Origin: Exiguobacterium sp. J17977
GTDB taxonomy: Bacteria; Bacillota; Bacilli; Exiguobacteriales; Exiguobacteriaceae
Assembly (NCBI RefSeq): GCF_018616375.1
Contig: NZ_JAEQBB010000008.1
Span: 1-64,000, forward strand
Reading direction: 5' to 3'
Length of the DNA stretch: 64,000 nucleotides
The notes under the pieces are model-generated. The model was not told where the DNA came from and did no database searches. It was given only the letters and a program-made list of their open reading frames with translations. The translations under genes were made by a program, and so were the position numbers. How positions within the stretch are numbered: the stretch's first letter is position 1; every line of letters starts with the position of its first letter. Of this stretch, positions 11,742-16,343 are shown one piece after another.

Positions 11742-11910
11742 CGCCGTAGCTTCTATTTTTTGCAGGAATGTTTTGGGATAATCTAGAAAAAGAATAATAT
11801 CGAGAAGCGGAGGCAATATCGTTGCACCCTTCCTATTTTTCTCGCAGGCTAATTCTAGAAAAAGAGCTATACTAGTAAGGAAGAGACAGACAAGATTGGA
11901 GGTCATGAAG

Positions 11911-12228
11911 TTGGATCACCGCGACCCACCGTTTTCAGAACTAGGCGACTTTAAACAATGGGGACGTTTTGATATAAACGTGCCACTTCAAGGCGGGCAA
12001 GCTGAACTGCAAGCTGCCGTATCGATTGTTAGACGTCATATTCCTTTGCGGTTGGGTGGATTTTATATCATCGCGAGTGAAGATGGCATTTTGCGAAGCG
12101 GCTCACACGACGCCAATTTGCAAAAACATATCATTCACCTGCTCCAACAAGTTCAAACGGGCCATGTGGAAGATGAAGCATTAATGAACGAACCGATTTG
12201 GACGATTCATTATTTCACCACTCCATAA
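11911..12228 (+). CDS. Hypothetical protein, TTG start
   Basis: A 105-residue soluble protein that I do not recognise. It begins with MDHRDPPFSELGDFKQWGRF if translation starts at the TTG at 11911, which has GGAGG (11898-11902) 8 bases upstream. Other in-frame starts (TTG at 11896, ATG at 11905) overlap or sit too close to that site. It has no membrane segment and no obvious motif; the middle contains IVRRHIPLRLGGFYIIASEDG, a likely alternating strand-helix fold. It stands alone between two terminators. Confidence 0.65.
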   Translation: MDHRDPPFSELGDFKQWGRFDINVPLQGGQAELQAAVSIVRRHIPLRLGGFYIIASEDGILRSGSHDANLQKHIIHLLQQVQTGHVEDEALMNEPIWTIHYFTTP

Positions 12229-12229
12229 A

Positions 12230-12262
12230 TAACGAGAGACGATTCGGGCGTCTCTTTTTTTG
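12230..12262 (+). terminator. Terminator after the 105-residue protein
   Basis: AGAGACG-attcggg-CGTCTCT stem followed by a T7 run. Confidence 0.85.
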
Positions 12263-12264
12263 TG

Positions 12265-12291
12265 CAAAAAAAGAACGCCTGAGGAGGCGTT
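12265..12291 (-). terminator. Terminator of the HTH-TPR regulator gene
   Basis: Leftward: AACGCC-tcctca-GGCGTT followed by CTTTTTTTG; the stem overlaps the stop codon of the regulator gene. Confidence 0.8.
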
Positions 12292-13552
12292 AATCCCATC
12301 GAGACATAATCGCAATGGATTTTTCATAGTATTCAGTGGATAGTTTATACTTCCCATTTTCACGTAACTCACGCGCTAACCAAAGGGCGTATTTGTTTGT
12401 GTACAAATAGTCATCGAAAGACTCAAAATATTGGACAGCTTTTTTCAAGCTACTAATCAATTTTAATTTATCGTGCTCTTTATAACAATTTCGATAAACC
12501 TCAAAGTGATGATGAAATTCTTCTAACCCTTCATGGTTACCTATAATCTCATATCCATTGCCAAGCCATTTTATAACGCCATTTGAATCCTCTTGTTCAG
12601 CATAAACTTCAATCAAAGAAAGTACACTATAGAGTTTGCTTTTAGGATCGGACTTGTAAGACAGACTCTCAAGAAAGTACTCTAACGCTTTTTCTTGATT
12701 ACCTAACAAAGAATAAATTTCACCCATATTATTATACAACATTCCGTTGTAATACTTTAAATCGGTTGCGCTAGTAACTTTAGTAGCGCGTTCGTAATGG
12801 GACAATGATTCTGAATAACGCTTTCTTCTTTTGTAAGAAAGCCCAATAATTAAATGACATTCAATTATTCGTTCTACATAAAAGTTATCTTTAAAATAAC
12901 CGAGTGCAAATTTAACGTTTTCAATGGCCTGTAAATAATCCGTCGACTTATAGTACAATCCTCCCATGATATATCGCATATCTGCAATCTCCCAATCAGG
13001 AATATTAGACGTAGGCAATTGTTCATTTAATTGTTCTAAAAGTTGCAATGAGGATTCTTTATCGTTTGATTGAAAATGAGTCAAACTTTGCATGAGCAAA
13101 TATCTGATTTTATTATCGCGATCTAATTGGTCTTCGAGCCATCCAAGTTCGTTTAAATAGCGCCCTTTTCCTCCAGGCATCAAATCGAATCTTGCTAATG
13201 TAATCAATAGCATGATGTATAATTCTTTTGATTGATTAACTACTGGATTAGAAATGTATTTTTCAATCTGCTTTCTTTTATCTTCATCTTTTCTCGTTAG
13301 AACTGCTTCTCTTAGAATAGTTTGAATTTCTTCTCTGACTTTATCAACTTGCTGACTAAAATCAAAATAAACAGGGACATTTATATTTAACTTTTCAAAA
13401 ATTAATTCTAGTACTTCTTCACTAGGTGTAGTTTGATTATTCTCAATCTTACTTAAATACGATATAGAACAAATACCTCTCGCTAAGACAGATTGCTTCA
13501 TGTTCCTACGCATGCGCTCTACTTTAATAAGGTTACCGTAGTTATATTCCAT
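12290..13552 (-). CDS. HTH-TPR regulator, candidate RRNPP peptide receptor
   Basis: A 420-residue cytoplasmic protein. Residues 5-60 form an XRE-type helix-turn-helix (MKQSVLARGICSISYLSKIE with the typical YLSKIEN recognition end). The remainder (about 75-420) is a helical array readable as tetratricopeptide repeats: ADMRYIMGGLYYKSTDYLQA, CHLIIGLSYKRRKRYSESLS, YNNMGEIYSLLGNQEKALEY, LARELRENGKYKLSTEYYEK. N-terminal XRE HTH plus C-terminal TPRs is the architecture of Rgg/PlcR/NprR/PrgX/AimR receptors, whose TPR domain binds a re-imported peptide. It is divergent from two genes, the second encoding a repeat peptide precursor. Codon use is strongly A/T-rich compared with neighbours. No other enzymatic domain is visible. 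Confidence 0.85.
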   Translation of the reverse strand: MEYNYGNLIKVERMRRNMKQSVLARGICSISYLSKIENNQTTPSEEVLELIFEKLNINVPVYFDFSQQVDKVREEIQTILREAVLTRKDEDKRKQIEKYISNPVVNQSKELYIMLLITLARFDLMPGGKGRYLNELGWLEDQLDRDNKIRYLLMQSLTHFQSNDKESSLQLLEQLNEQLPTSNIPDWEIADMRYIMGGLYYKSTDYLQAIENVKFALGYFKDNFYVERIIECHLIIGLSYKRRKRYSESLSHYERATKVTSATDLKYYNGMLYNNMGEIYSLLGNQEKALEYFLESLSYKSDPKSKLYSVLSLIEVYAEQEDSNGVIKWLGNGYEIIGNHEGLEEFHHHFEVYRNCYKEHDKLKLISSLKKAVQYFESFDDYLYTNKYALWLARELRENGKYKLSTEYYEKSIAIMSRWD

Positions 13553-13610
13553 CTCAAGTAGTAGCTCCTTCGTCCCAAATATGATTAGTTTTTATATTAA
13601 TTATTCGCTA

Positions 13611-13629
13611 TTTCCTACCGTTTAGGAAA
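13611..13629. promoter_or_regulatory. Perfect inverted repeat, candidate operator
   Basis: TTTCCTA-ccgtt-TAGGAAA, a perfect 7-5-7 inverted repeat in the 274-base region between the divergent HTH-TPR regulator and the acyltransferase-like gene. It is about 60 bases upstream of the regulator start. Position and symmetry fit an autoregulatory HTH binding site; there is no T-run, so it is not a terminator. A weak promoter for the rightward genes may be TTAAGA (13715-13720), 16 bases, TATATT (13737-13742). Confidence 0.45.
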
Positions 13630-13826
13630 ATGGAAGCTAAAAACCTCAAAAAATCTAATGCTTTTTGCACTAATTTTCCCAACCGAATACTGAACGAATG
13701 TCCTAATATACATGTTAAGATTTATATAAGAACTAGTATATTAGTGATTAACTTAGGTCCATTGGTTTATTAACAATCTGCCACCAGAAAAATATGGACA
13801 TTCAATAATGGAGGTGAATTTAGCAT

Positions 13827-14501
13827 ATGGGAAAGTTAAATTTCTTGCTTGCTGAAGACTACATTAAACCAAAAATCTATTTTCAATCAAAACAACAAAA
13901 CATCTTTGATGCCTCATATTCTTCGTCTGATCGAAGTCAATTTGAAGGATTAGAACATTTAACCCAATTGTTACGTTCATCAACAGGATTTATAGTTAAC
14001 GCTTTCCAAGTTGATTACTATCAAACTTTACCACGACTCATAGCTAAAACATTGAAAGAAAACAAAATGTACAAGCGCATTTATGTTTTAGGCCCTGAAC
14101 TATCTCTTTCTATTTTAAAGCGCAGTTCGAAAACCGTCTATGAGAAACATTTCCAAGAATTCGGATATATAAATATAGAACAAGCATATGACAGTGTCCT
14201 TAAACAGTGTTTAGCACTATTGAAAGAAGGTCATATTTTATATGTTCTTCCTGAAGCCTCTATTTGTTGGAATCCAGAACCACTTACACAATTTAAAAAC
14301 AGATTTACTCCTTTATGTAGCACCTTACTCAGTCAAGAAGCAAACGTTCCAATTTTGTCATCTAGCACAAAAGAAAATAATGACAAATTTATTTTACATG
14401 AACCAAATATACCTCAACAGTACATTGGTGACTTAGAATCTCGCATTGAACAGCAATCTGATGCGATTTATTCATTGCTAGAATCACCATTTTCTGAGTA
14501 A
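13827..14501 (+). CDS. Unknown protein, LPLAT acyltransferase-like (weak)
   Basis: A 224-residue soluble protein that I cannot assign firmly. The overall pattern resembles the lysophospholipid acyltransferase/HtrB superfamily: GFIVNAFQVDYYQTLPRLIA in the place of the usual HX4D block, KRIYVLGPEL, then LLKEGHILYVLPEASICWNP (cf. the G-x-x-v/i-x-P-E/D-G block) and FTPLCSTLLSQEANVPIL (cf. the x-x-LA-x-x-T/S-G-A-x-V/I-P block). The catalytic His of HX4D is not visible, so it may be inactive or the likeness may be superficial. ATG at 13827 follows GGAGGTGAATTTAGC. A+T-rich like the regulator. It lies 57 bases ahead of the repeat peptide gene with no terminator between, so the two are probably cotranscribed. 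Confidence 0.6.
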   Translation: MGKLNFLLAEDYIKPKIYFQSKQQNIFDASYSSSDRSQFEGLEHLTQLLRSSTGFIVNAFQVDYYQTLPRLIAKTLKENKMYKRIYVLGPELSLSILKRSSKTVYEKHFQEFGYINIEQAYDSVLKQCLALLKEGHILYVLPEASICWNPEPLTQFKNRFTPLCSTLLSQEANVPILSSSTKENNDKFILHEPNIPQQYIGDLESRIEQQSDAIYSLLESPFSE

Positions 14502-14558
14502 AATCATATTAGGGATCGCAGCTTACAAAATACACCACCCTACAATGGAGGAATTATC

Positions 14559-14810
14559 ATGAAAAAATTAACTGGAATTTTCTTTATTGCCACAGCACTC
14601 TTTTTACTCGGAACTTCTTTCAAGCCGCTAGCAGACGATTTTCCACGTTTGACGAAAATCGATATGATTGTAAAACCTGCAGCAGATGACTTTCCGCGTT
14701 TAACTAAACTTGAGGCCCCTATTCAAAAATTTGCAGATGATTTTCCACGCCTTACGAAAATCGAAGAGCCTGTTAAAACATTCGCTGATGATTTCCCACG
14801 CCTTACTTAA
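14559..14810 (+). CDS. Secreted precursor with four ADDFPRLT peptide repeats (candidate pheromone)
   Basis: An 83-residue pre-pro-peptide. Residues 1-20 are a Sec-type signal sequence (MKKLTG followed by a hydrophobic core IFFIATALFLLG). The rest is four copies of ADDFPRLT at residues 25-32, 42-49, 59-66 and 76-83, exactly 17 residues apart, joined by 9-residue linkers starting K(I/L)(D/E). The last copy ends at the stop codon, so the natural C-terminus is ...PRLT; the first three would need cleavage before Lys. Every copy is preceded by a hydrophobic residue or Ala. Strong GGAGGAATTATC site and ATG. The design matches secreted precursors of short signalling peptides (Phr, PapR, NprX, AimP) except for the multiple copies. 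Alternatives: bacteriocin or structural repeat, less likely given the HTH-TPR neighbour. Confidence 0.8.
   Translation: MKKLTGIFFIATALFLLGTSFKPLADDFPRLTKIDMIVKPAADDFPRLTKLEAPIQKFADDFPRLTKIEEPVKTFADDFPRLT
14631..14807 (+). repeat. Four 24-base peptide-coding repeats with 51-base period
   Basis: Copies at 14631-14654, 14682-14705, 14733-14756 and 14784-14807 all encode ADDFPRLT. They differ almost only at synonymous positions (GAC/GAT, TTT/TTC, CCA/CCG, CGT/CGC, TTG/TTA/CTT), while the linkers between them vary in sequence. That is the mark of selection on the peptide, not of a recent DNA duplication. Confidence 0.92.
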
Positions 14811-14816
14811 TCGTTA

Positions 14817-14856
14817 AAAGAGACGCCAGAGACGCCCTCGTGCGTCTCTTTTTTTA
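14817..14856 (+). terminator. Terminator of the peptide-signalling unit
   Basis: AGAGACGC / GCGTCTCT stem followed by TTTTTTTATTT, right after the precursor gene. Confidence 0.85.
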
Positions 14857-15014: not shown

Positions 15015-16343
15015 TTGAACCAAACGAAATCATCTTGGAACTTGAAACTGTTGCTTAGCTCTTCCCTTGTCATTGGTGGCATGGCCGTCGCCCCATTCGA
15101 CTTGACGCCGACCGGTTTCGAATCGAGCCGAGTCGAAGCTGCCTCTACATACACGACAACAGCTAACTTGAACCTTCGCTTAAGTGCCGCTACATGGAGT
15201 CCCGTCCTCTTGACGATTCCAAACGGAGCGACCGTCAAATATGTCAGCACGTACGGATCTTGGTACAAGGTCAGCTACGGTGGCAAGACCGGCTACGTCG
15301 CTTCGCAATATGTGAAAGTTTCGACTGCCTCGACGATGACGCCGAGCTCAGCCTCGTACTATAAAACGACGGTCAACTTGAACATGCGCTTGACGGCTGC
15401 CTCATGGAGCACGGTTTTGACGACCATCCCGAACGGCGCCACTGTGAAATACGTCAGTCGTTACGGCTCTTGGTATAAAGTCAGTTACAACGGTAAGACT
15501 GGCTACGTCGCTTCGCAATACTTAACTGCTACGGGAGCCCCGACCACGACGACTTCTACGACGTCATACCAGACGACGGTCAACTTGAACATGCGCTTGA
15601 CGGCAGCCTCATGGAGCACGGTCTTGATGACCATCCCGAACGGCGCCACCGTTAAGTACGTCAGCAAGTACGGCTCTTGGTATAAGGTCAGTTACGGCGG
15701 CAAGACCGGTTACGTCGCTTCCGAATACTTGAAGCCCGCCACGACGACGACACCGACGACCTCAACCGGTACTGGCCGGACGATTGTCATCGATGCCGGA
15801 CACGGCGGGAATGACCCAGGCGCTGTTTACAGATCCGTATACGAAAAAGTCATCGCTTTCGATATCGCCGCACGCCTTGCGAGCACGCTCTCGAATACAT
15901 ATGGCTATAATGCACGAATGACGCGTTCGAACGACGTGTACTTGTCGCTCGCACAACGCGTCGAATTGACAAAGTCGTATAAAGGTAGCGCCTTTGTCAG
16001 CATTCATAACAACTCGTCGACGAACACGTCTTACCACGGTCACGAAGTCCTCGTCCCGACCGGTGAAAGTTATACGACGAACCCGTACATCTCGGCCAGC
16101 CGCAGTTTAGGGGCAGCCATCAACCGTGAGCTCGGTGTCCGCATCCCAACGATTCGTAACCGCGGTGTGAAATATCAAAACGTTTATGTCGTCGGCAAGA
16201 ACAGCGTCCCATCGACGCTTGTCGAATATGGCTTCATCAGCAACTCGAACGACCGCTCGCACTTGACGAGCACCACATACCGGCAACGAATGGCAGATGC
16301 CACCGCTTCTGGGATTCATCAATTCATGAGCACTTATAAATAA
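15015..16343 (+). CDS. N-acetylmuramoyl-L-alanine amidase with three SH3 domains
   Basis: A 442-residue secreted autolysin that cleaves the amide bond between MurNAc and L-Ala. Signal peptide about 1-42 (ending SSRVEAAS), then three SH3b repeats (about 45-98, 118-168, 188-238; each with NLN(L/M)RL, IPNGATVKYVS.YGSWYKVSY and GKTGYVAS), Ser/Thr-rich linkers, and an Amidase_3 domain from about 252: DAGHGGNDPGA (zinc His), YEKVIAFDIAARL (zinc Glu), FVSIHNNS (zinc His) and VEYGFISNSND (catalytic Glu). The SH3 domains probably bind the wall peptide. The start is a TTG at 15015 preceded by AAAGGAGCGGATC. Single gene with its own terminator. Confidence 0.95.
   Translation: MNQTKSSWNLKLLLSSSLVIGGMAVAPFDLTPTGFESSRVEAASTYTTTANLNLRLSAATWSPVLLTIPNGATVKYVSTYGSWYKVSYGGKTGYVASQYVKVSTASTMTPSSASYYKTTVNLNMRLTAASWSTVLTTIPNGATVKYVSRYGSWYKVSYNGKTGYVASQYLTATGAPTTTTSTTSYQTTVNLNMRLTAASWSTVLMTIPNGATVKYVSKYGSWYKVSYGGKTGYVASEYLKPATTTTPTTSTGTGRTIVIDAGHGGNDPGAVYRSVYEKVIAFDIAARLASTLSNTYGYNARMTRSNDVYLSLAQRVELTKSYKGSAFVSIHNNSSTNTSYHGHEVLVPTGESYTTNPYISASRSLGAAINRELGVRIPTIRNRGVKYQNVYVVGKNSVPSTLVEYGFISNSNDRSHLTSTTYRQRMADATASGIHQFMSTYK

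Follow-up and report, generated by a model that had tools for sequence, protein, structure and literature searches.

The 64,000-nucleotide stretch of Exiguobacterium sp. J17977 DNA that we analyzed (contig NZ_JAEQBB010000008.1, positions 1 to 64,000; here, the window) carries a three-gene cassette in which the gene for a regulator with an XRE-type helix-turn-helix (HTH) domain and tetratricopeptide repeats (TPRs) diverges from a pair of genes, the second of which encodes a secreted-looking precursor with four copies of the octapeptide ADDFPRLT. An earlier note, made from the sequence alone, had proposed a peptide signaling system of the RRNPP type with the regulator as its receptor. The three open reading frames (ORFs) lie where that note had placed them, at 12290-13552, 13827-14501, and 14559-14810, and so do the four repeat copies, which start at 14631, 14682, 14733, and 14784. 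The features of the locus are as follows.

12274-12291, minus strand: terminator-like hairpin 3' of the receptor gene
12290-13552, minus strand: receptor gene, encoding a 420-aa NprR-like regulator with an XRE-HTH domain, a three-helix bundle, and TPRs (Pfam, model, superposition)
13361-13552, minus strand: HTH domain, residues 1-64, the most conserved part of the receptor
13553-13826: divergent promoter/operator region (17-genome alignment)
13624-13629, plus strand: conserved AGGAAA, mirror of the TTTCCCAAC element (at every column, at least 16 of 17 genomes agree)
13675-13683, plus strand: TTTCCCAAC, conserved element and candidate receptor-binding site (17-genome alignment)
13713-13721, plus strand: extended -10 like sequence TGTTAAGAT, with no clear -35 by eye
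13827-14501, plus strand: middle gene, encoding a 224-aa protein with a predicted lysophospholipid acyltransferase (LPLAT) fold, without the His of HX4D (model, alignment of 18)
14559-14810, plus strand: putative pheromone precursor, 83 aa, with a signal-like N terminus and four repeats
14559-14630, plus strand: residues 1-24, resembling a signal sequence by eye (MKK and a hydrophobic core)
14631-14654, plus strand: ADDFPRLT copy 1
14682-14705, plus strand: ADDFPRLT copy 2
14733-14756, plus strand: ADDFPRLT copy 3
14784-14807, plus strand: ADDFPRLT copy 4, ending at the stop codon
14828-14849, plus strand: terminator-like hairpin with a T run, 3' of the precursor gene

Since the gap between the middle gene and the precursor gene is just 57 nt, the two are likely cotranscribed. 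Receptor and middle gene each gave a match in 18 of the 19 Exiguobacterium genomes, and the middle gene was found in none of 19 genomes of a sister genus of the same family. The same three genes thus recur in the genus, as the earlier note had suggested checking: the 18 genomes with receptor and middle gene (the window's own included) hold 17 complete repeat-bearing precursors, and in the remaining genome (G002) the precursor is cut off by the contig end after MRKVTGVLLIATAVLLLGSSVRPLVD. Seven named records with the receptor all belong to Exiguobacterium, including E. chiriqhucha, E. alkaliphilum, and E. aurantiacum.

The 17 complete precursors measure 66 to 100 aa counted from MKK, in keeping with the 10 to 100 residues expected of RRNPP(A) propeptides (PMC10075063), and contain 68 pattern-matched copies, two to five each, which represent 15 distinct octapeptides with the consensus x-[DE]-[DE]-x-P-R-[LI]-x. 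P and R occupy positions 5 and 6 in 68/68 copies; position 2 is D or E and position 7 is L or I, again in 68/68; position 3 is D or E in 67/68, and positions 1, 4, and 8 are variable. The spacing is 17 residues for 48 of the 51 neighboring copies (51 nt throughout in the window), and the last copy forms the end of the precursor in 17/17. Lys directly follows 45 of the 51 internal copies, and F or L precedes 50 of all 68. Between genomes the copies shift together, to GEDFPRLA, GEELPRLG, GEDLPRLT, VDEMPRIG, ADEMPRIG, VDDMPRIV, and others. Such repetition is not expected by chance: the window's precursor contains one 8-mer four times, and even a 4-mer occurring four times arose in just 1 of 20,000 residue shuffles.

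The codons of the repeats support the octapeptide as the selected unit, in line with the earlier note. The four copies in the window show 28 synonymous and no replacement differences (6 pairs), and this divergence at synonymous sites means that they do not stem from a fresh DNA duplication. The 11 precursors in which all copies are identical gave 0 replacement and 278 synonymous differences in 78 pairs, and all 17 precursors gave 43 and 361, respectively, in 106 pairs, compared to 227 replacement and 86 synonymous differences in 52 pairs of equally long linkers. We conclude from these counts that the copies are selected for their amino acids, and the linkers much less so.

In the regulator, Pfam recognizes HTH_3 (E 1.9e-9) and TPR_12 (E 1.1e-14). 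With 420 residues and TPRs it falls within the range of RRNPP(A) receptors (250 to 500 residues plus TPRs; PMC10075063), and helical repeats are seen in a model built from 17 sequences, which has a mean predicted local distance difference test score (pLDDT) of 84.5 and a poorly modeled HTH. The three-helix-bundle and TPR part superposes on RapI (Z 30.7, 345 residues, 3.6 Å) and on NprR 5dbk_B (Z 30.0, 344 residues, 3.5 Å, residues 67-417 on 67-418), whereas the best TPR protein from outside the family reached Z 23.5 and AimR Z 20.5. Both the TPR fold and the RRNPP-type assignment put forward earlier are thereby supported at the level of the model, and the predicted architecture is the HTH, three-helix bundle, and nine TPRs of the NprR subfamily. 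In a profile search, three designed TPR proteins came first, followed by NprR as the best natural match (E 2.5e-10) and, close to it on what are pairwise scores only, Rap3T (E 3.7e-9). The invariant Asn at residue 275 falls opposite an Asn of NprR. For Rap3T, a conserved Asn has been described that holds the backbone of the peptide in place (PMC11343458), our comparison at the residue level being with NprR and not with Rap3T. The TPR part also matches phrog_5208 of PHROGs (function not assigned; E 1.6e-23), and the receptor was unmatched at E 1e-5 in a phage collection. SBP_bac_5, a family of oligopeptide-binding proteins, has seven matches in the window's genome; two of these share a frame, which apparently leaves six genes. 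Oligopeptide permeases are thus available for uptake, though none of them is specific evidence.

If this protein is the receptor for the octapeptide, the two should vary together, which the earlier note had also proposed to test, and they do. Across the 15 of 18 genomes with an intact receptor and a regular precursor, peptide distance correlated with the distance of TPR residues 145-300 at 0.79, compared to 0.39 for rpoB and 0.44 for the middle protein. Given rpoB, the partial correlation was 0.746 (0 of 2000 permutations) and 0.755 for the TPR part and 0.737 for the three-helix part, falling to 0.388 for the signal sequence and 0.238 for the middle protein (0 to 2 of 2000 permutations each). 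At the sequence level, then, peptide type follows the ligand-binding domain of the receptor far better than it follows rpoB or the middle gene. The HTH is much less variable in the same genomes (mean pairwise distance 0.131, versus 0.354-0.390 in other parts of the receptor). A per-column search of receptor and peptide yielded candidates such as residue 419 with peptide position 2; naming contact residues from it was given up, as 15 related genomes are too few.

The receptor tree tells the same story, rejecting 5/5 groupings derived from rpoB in approximately unbiased (AU) tests with p values from 4e-5 to 3e-70 (six genomes of one rpoB clade, 7.6e-8; G005 with G018, 3e-70; G004 with G009, 4e-5; G000 with G007, 1.9e-6; G000, G007, G008, and G017, 2.4e-7). 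The middle gene tree retains the rpoB clade of six (support 100/100), rejects G010 with G018 and G006 (p 4e-6), which are the partners of G010's receptor, and does not reject G004 with G005 (p 0.15); G010 is a long branch in the trees. Judged from these sequences, close species carry different receptor-peptide alleles, and the pairing of receptor and peptide suggested earlier is upheld by the co-variation and receptor-tree tests.

We therefore read the cassette, from its sequence and the structural models, as an RRNPP-type peptide signaling system of the NprR-like branch with a rearranged gene order, and assign this reading a probability of about 0.88. It draws on the gene order, the repeat and the selection acting on it, the predicted receptor fold, the co-variation, the replacement of alleles, and a promoter element that keeps a fixed distance to the -10.

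That element, TTTCCCAAC, is exact in 15 of the 17 aligned genomes and takes the form TTTCCCAAT in the other two. In 15/15 cases the distance from its start to the TG of a downstream extended -10 like sequence (TGATA- or TGTTAAG-type) is 38 nt, and in the same 15 genomes AGGAAA (AAGAAA in G001) is found 48-50 nt upstream of it. The longest conserved run of the divergent region, TTTCCCAA (8 columns), was matched by 4 of 10,000 column shuffles. The fixed 38-nt spacing, together with the lack of a clear -35, suggests an activated promoter. A search of the same genome for TTTCCCAAC-N26-36-TGNTAAGAT returned this locus only, looser patterns not having been tried, and we thus name no further target genes. 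An inverted repeat over the -10 (13703-13744) was considered as an operator and rejected; it pairs at 12/14 positions in the window and at 1-6/14 in the other 16 aligned genomes.

For export, cutting, reimport, binding, the sign of regulation, and the output we infer the following course. The operon promoter would drive the middle protein and the precursor, the latter being exported through Sec. Each repeat would be freed by extracellular proteases, with cleavage close to the preceding hydrophobic residue and at the following Lys; up to four octapeptide-like signals per chain would result, with ADDFPRLT or a trimmed form of it as the mature signal. An oligopeptide permease would reimport the peptide, which would bind in the groove formed by the TPRs of the HTH receptor. 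In turn, the receptor would act at TTTCCCAAC in the divergent promoter and most likely activate the operon; the result would be positive feedback, with the middle gene as a density-controlled output.

The sign of this regulation could also be the reverse, with the receptor repressing the operon and the peptide inhibiting the receptor and so releasing the operon, following the logic of PrgX or Rap. The sign cannot be read from sequence, and the mirrored elements 48-50 nt apart would suit a repression loop as well. We nevertheless lean toward activation and treat repression as a possible but weaker option, since an extended -10 without a clear -35, with an element at a fixed 38 nt, resembles an activated promoter, and since NprR is an activator.

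What the middle gene contributes is a second point on which readings diverge. At E up to 1, its product has no match in Pfam. The model (pLDDT 73.6, low in residues 1-24 and 148-162) found LPLAT enzymes in the PDB library, where each of the 14 hits from Foldseek with E up to 0.001 was LpxM or PatA, and superposed on PatA (Z 11.3), PlsC (Z 9.7), and LpxM (Z 9.5), with unrelated entries reaching up to 7.7; in a viral fold library the three hits at E up to 0.001 were acyltransferases of large viruses. The model thus predicts an LPLAT fold, and to this extent the label "acyltransferase-like" given earlier holds. It fails for the catalytic motif: at the place of the HX4D/HX4E site, located from the order of elements and not by residue-level superposition, residues 59-66 after strand 55-58 read A-F-Q-[VI]-D-Y-Y-Q in 18/18 sequences, without a His, and the only invariant His of the alignment is residue 136. 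Profile comparison with PlsC-like proteins aligned just residues 111-146 or 123-202, at 8-13% probability, placing the PEG of block III on PEA at 142-144 with low probability, and a global profile alignment with these proteins failed. From sequence and model, the protein may be noncatalytic. It is a maintained protein, as indicated by dN/dS values of 0.03-0.14 in eight pairs, which reflect purifying selection. No relative of it was found on plasmids at E 1, nor among 65 stretches of viral contigs that matched a pattern.

Rather than being the output, the middle protein might be a part of the signaling itself, modifying, guarding, or trafficking the peptide in the cell or tuning the receptor. 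Its gene adjoins the receptor gene in 18/18 genomes and is followed by a complete precursor in 17 of them and by one truncated at the contig end in the other; the protein is under the purifying selection just described, and the window's genome has a single match to it. On the other hand, the middle gene follows the species tree and not the peptide type (partial r 0.238), which makes a peptide-specific role hardly tenable, and that of G010 stays with its species clade where the receptor does not. The plasmid receptor homologues described below lack a relative of the protein, the distant chromosomal loci not having been searched for one. We consider such a role rather unlikely. A related proposal, which we make tentatively and think less probable than its opposite, is that the cassette has a dedicated, probably noncatalytic LPLAT-fold third component, with receptor and multicopy precursor switching as pherotypes around a resident pseudo-LPLAT that would serve either as a density-controlled membrane output or as a peptide-handling tuner. 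Our literature searches found no RRNPP description of a pheromone cassette with an acyltransferase-fold third component.

Exchange of alleles is seen most clearly between the window and G008, which are 1.8% apart in rpoB. Their flanks are 93.1% (upstream) and 93.8% (downstream) identical, while within the cassette identity falls to 70.4% in the receptor, 62.5% in the intergenic region, 74.7% in the middle gene, and 58.6% in the precursor stretch, the change lying inside 100-nt windows at the cassette ends. The cassette of this pair therefore behaves as an allele-swapped island. Between G005 and G018, 200-nt windows gave 84-93% downstream, 76-90% in the middle gene, 65-74% in most of the receptor (80% at the HTH end), and 64% in the precursor; this is not a clean picture of exchange, since the upstream flanks do not align (about 50%). 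The pattern is reversed between G004 and G005, with dN of 0.025 for the receptor and 0.118 for the middle gene.

Because some pairs show the whole cassette replaced together, one may ask whether shared ancestry and whole-cassette exchange could account for all of the co-variation, with no specific recognition of peptide by receptor. That the HTH correlates with the peptide as well speaks for this, and part of the correlation must indeed reflect the exchange of whole genes and not groove contact. As the entire explanation we find it quite unlikely: the middle gene, although it sits between receptor and precursor, correlates far less with the peptide (0.238 versus 0.746), and in G005 and G018 receptor and precursor have diverged more than the middle gene, with the reservation about the upstream flanks of that pair.

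Related receptors elsewhere place the peptide in a broader setting. Among 299 genomes of the class, 20 contained receptor matches at E up to 1e-25, 14 of them belonging to the genus and 6 to one other family (f3; eight loci). These chromosomal loci (L135-L142; E 1e-39 to 1e-72) contain the nearest relatives of the receptor found outside the genus. In seven of the eight, a small secreted-looking ORF starts within 60 nt behind the receptor match; no propeptide-like ORF was found behind the receptor of the eighth, L139. Six of the seven ORFs fit [DE][DEQ]xP, with DEMPKLT, DQMPKVF, DETPRPT, DDLPPIT, EEIPRPV, and DDKPKIT, and the seventh reads ADFQIPKIT. When propeptides were picked by script, five of six fitted this pattern, a number reached in 0 of 10,000 residue shuffles, and it occurs in 2/143 other ORFs of the eight loci. 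Plasmids provided 10 further records of receptor homologues (25-35% identity), all from Bacillaceae genera by name. The downstream ORFs, read for six of them, included KDDEILPPL, SEEEFPEPT, and FEEDPGPM; plasmid H8 has the same protein accession as the KDDEILPPL ORF and a receptor split into two ORFs. On a Cytobacillus spongiae plasmid (L048:5259), an unannotated 38-aa propeptide-like ORF with GNEEEFPPF and a GNEEEFPPFSSKL end lies beside an HTH-TPR receptor, and in Mesobacillus foraminis (L045:5254-5667) a multicopy DEEFPPPLAP precursor follows an NprR-like receptor. The latter locus is near a nonribosomal peptide synthetase gene. The chromosomal and plasmid loci together indicate that the acidic-x-Pro peptide belongs to a wider group of receptors, in which the usual order is receptor followed by propeptide; on this sequence comparison, the gene order in Exiguobacterium may be derived.

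That the repeated protein is instead a secreted antimicrobial or structural protein, such as a bacteriocin or wall protein, whose operon the regulator controls through the shared divergent promoter without any need to bind a peptide, is very unlikely: G012 retains a precursor alongside a broken receptor gene, as this would allow, but the repeats differ between close species with the TPR part of the receptor differing alongside, the selected unit is eight residues with freely varying linkers, similar cores occur in propeptides beside distant receptors, and Pfam and NCBIfam return only subthreshold DUF-type or unrelated matches.

Several points weigh against the signaling reading. Contrary to the usual order in the family, the precursor is separated from the receptor by 1,006 bp and one gene, and a promoter-like site at 14475-14504 leaves room for its separate expression. 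That site comes from a consensus promoter scan which lists other sites and omits our proposed -10; with 16 promoter-like sites versus 11.1 expected by chance, the scan says little. Sec export is predicted from MKK and a hydrophobic N-terminal stretch, judged by eye in the 17 precursors. In 6/17 precursors the copies differ among themselves. The final copy has diverged to SEELPRLI in two genomes, to VDELPRLV in two others, and to NESMPRIV in G010, and the precursor of G009 (L029) is irregular, a degenerate copy being joined by two regular ones (ADERPRLF, ADELPRLF) at 23-residue spacing. The HTH shows a partial correlation with the peptide of 0.545; the permutations and AU tests leave relatedness in, and all tested groupings were picked after the trees had been seen. 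The earlier note would have taken a precursor without its regulator as a refutation. None was found in 17/18 genomes, but in G012 (L018) a frameshift interrupts the receptor gene near residue 375, and the precursor there has five intact copies; this genome, the only such case among the 18, may represent a signal maker without a receptor or an assembly error. More generally, the case for the cassette is built on sequences and models, and its activity side is inferred.

The neighborhood offers some additional observations. A 110-aa protein encoded upstream, adjoining the cassette (11896-12228, plus strand), has no Pfam match at E up to 1; its gene is matched in 18/19 genomes of the genus and 0/19 of the sister genus, and in G008 and G017 the protein is 98% identical, compared to 71% for the receptor. 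Directly downstream of the cassette lies a gene for an N-acetylmuramoyl-L-alanine amidase with three SH3_3 repeats (15015-16343, plus strand), the first part of which is likewise diverged between G007 and G008 (64-73%). Plus-strand terminator hairpins at 12234-12256 and 14828-14849 flank the cassette and have an 18-nt stretch in common at 94%, which could aid homologous exchange of the block. G011, the sole genome of the genus without the cassette, gave seven matches (67-81% identity) to the 8.1-kb region, in the kinase gene and, in one case, in the amidase gene. The upstream 110-aa gene has no match there, and close matches to the genes on both sides are missing too, as if the whole stretch had been lost.

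Among the closest known systems is NprR-NprX of the Bacillus cereus group, with which the cassette shares the HTH, three-helix bundle, and TPR receptor, superposable over the whole ligand part. It differs in that the propeptide gene is the third in a divergent cassette rather than downstream of the receptor, in the [DE][DE]xPR[LI] core of its peptide, and in the added middle gene. The multicopy precursor, which the earlier note had considered unusual and likened to yeast alpha factor, is no novelty, since such propeptides have been published for Rap, NprR, PlcR, and AimR (PMC11343458, PMC9765709): up to six copies are reported in these families, and multicopy propeptides in 17/17 atypically long ones of NprR (PMC9765709). 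As in this cassette, one precursor of the duplicated Rap-Phr pheromones (Phr3T, Phr105) holds several identical or nearly identical copies, more conserved than the linkers, and up to eight copies processed by extracellular proteases are described (PMC11343458); duplication of Phr is viewed as a stage on the way to new specificity (PMC5199041). Unlike our receptor, Rap lacks an HTH and targets other proteins (PMC9765709), and the gene order is different too.

The HTH-TPR receptors of other Bacilli (L135-L142 and plasmids H1, H2, H6, H7, and H9) have a similar peptide grammar, e.g., DEMPKLT, EEIPRP, and DDKPKIT, and differ in having the propeptide directly downstream on the same strand, mostly in one copy. 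It is these propeptides, rather than PapR, which the earlier note had called superficially similar, that are the nearest relatives of the peptide. PlcR-PapR does resemble the cassette in its HTH-TPR receptor and its short acidic-hydrophobic-Pro peptide, given in the earlier note as ADLPFEF. However, PlcR represents a five-TPR class in a structural tree in which NprR and Rap fall into a nine-TPR clan (PMC12700828), the clan that the ligand part of our receptor matches. A further likeness, in variable signal-receptor alleles that sit in a conserved chromosome and move between lineages, is with pherotype loci. Of these, comQXPA and agr are polymorphic. Exchange between lineages has been described for Rap-Phr (PMC5199041); what differs here is that receptor and precursor alleles at some points change on either side of a middle gene which itself follows the species tree.

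Literature searches found no title on this cassette and no text bringing RRNPP together with Exiguobacterium, with some papers on Exiguobacterium and pheromones or PapR judged by title and with supplementary files and preprints outside the search; the genus name is absent from the main text of PMC11343458, PMC9765709, PMC10075063, and PMC12700828. The novelty lies in the cassette itself, the peptide variants seen across the genus, and the middle gene. RRNPP_detector requires propeptide and receptor to be directly adjacent, by default at -60 to 400 bp (PMC10075063), and the pheromone genes of PrgX are usually not near the receptor (PMC9765709), making adjacency more a rule of searching than a definition of the RRNPP kind.

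With 15 distinct octapeptides in 17 precursors and the receptors paired with them, the genus provides a set for reading how the TPR groove chooses its ligand. The rule that all copies are alike, combined with their silent divergence, lends itself to a stringent test of the reason why a bacterium maintains more than one pheromone copy in each chain. Since its precursor and receptor genes are not neighbors, this cassette would escape any search that requires adjacency, and other rearranged systems may escape in the same way.

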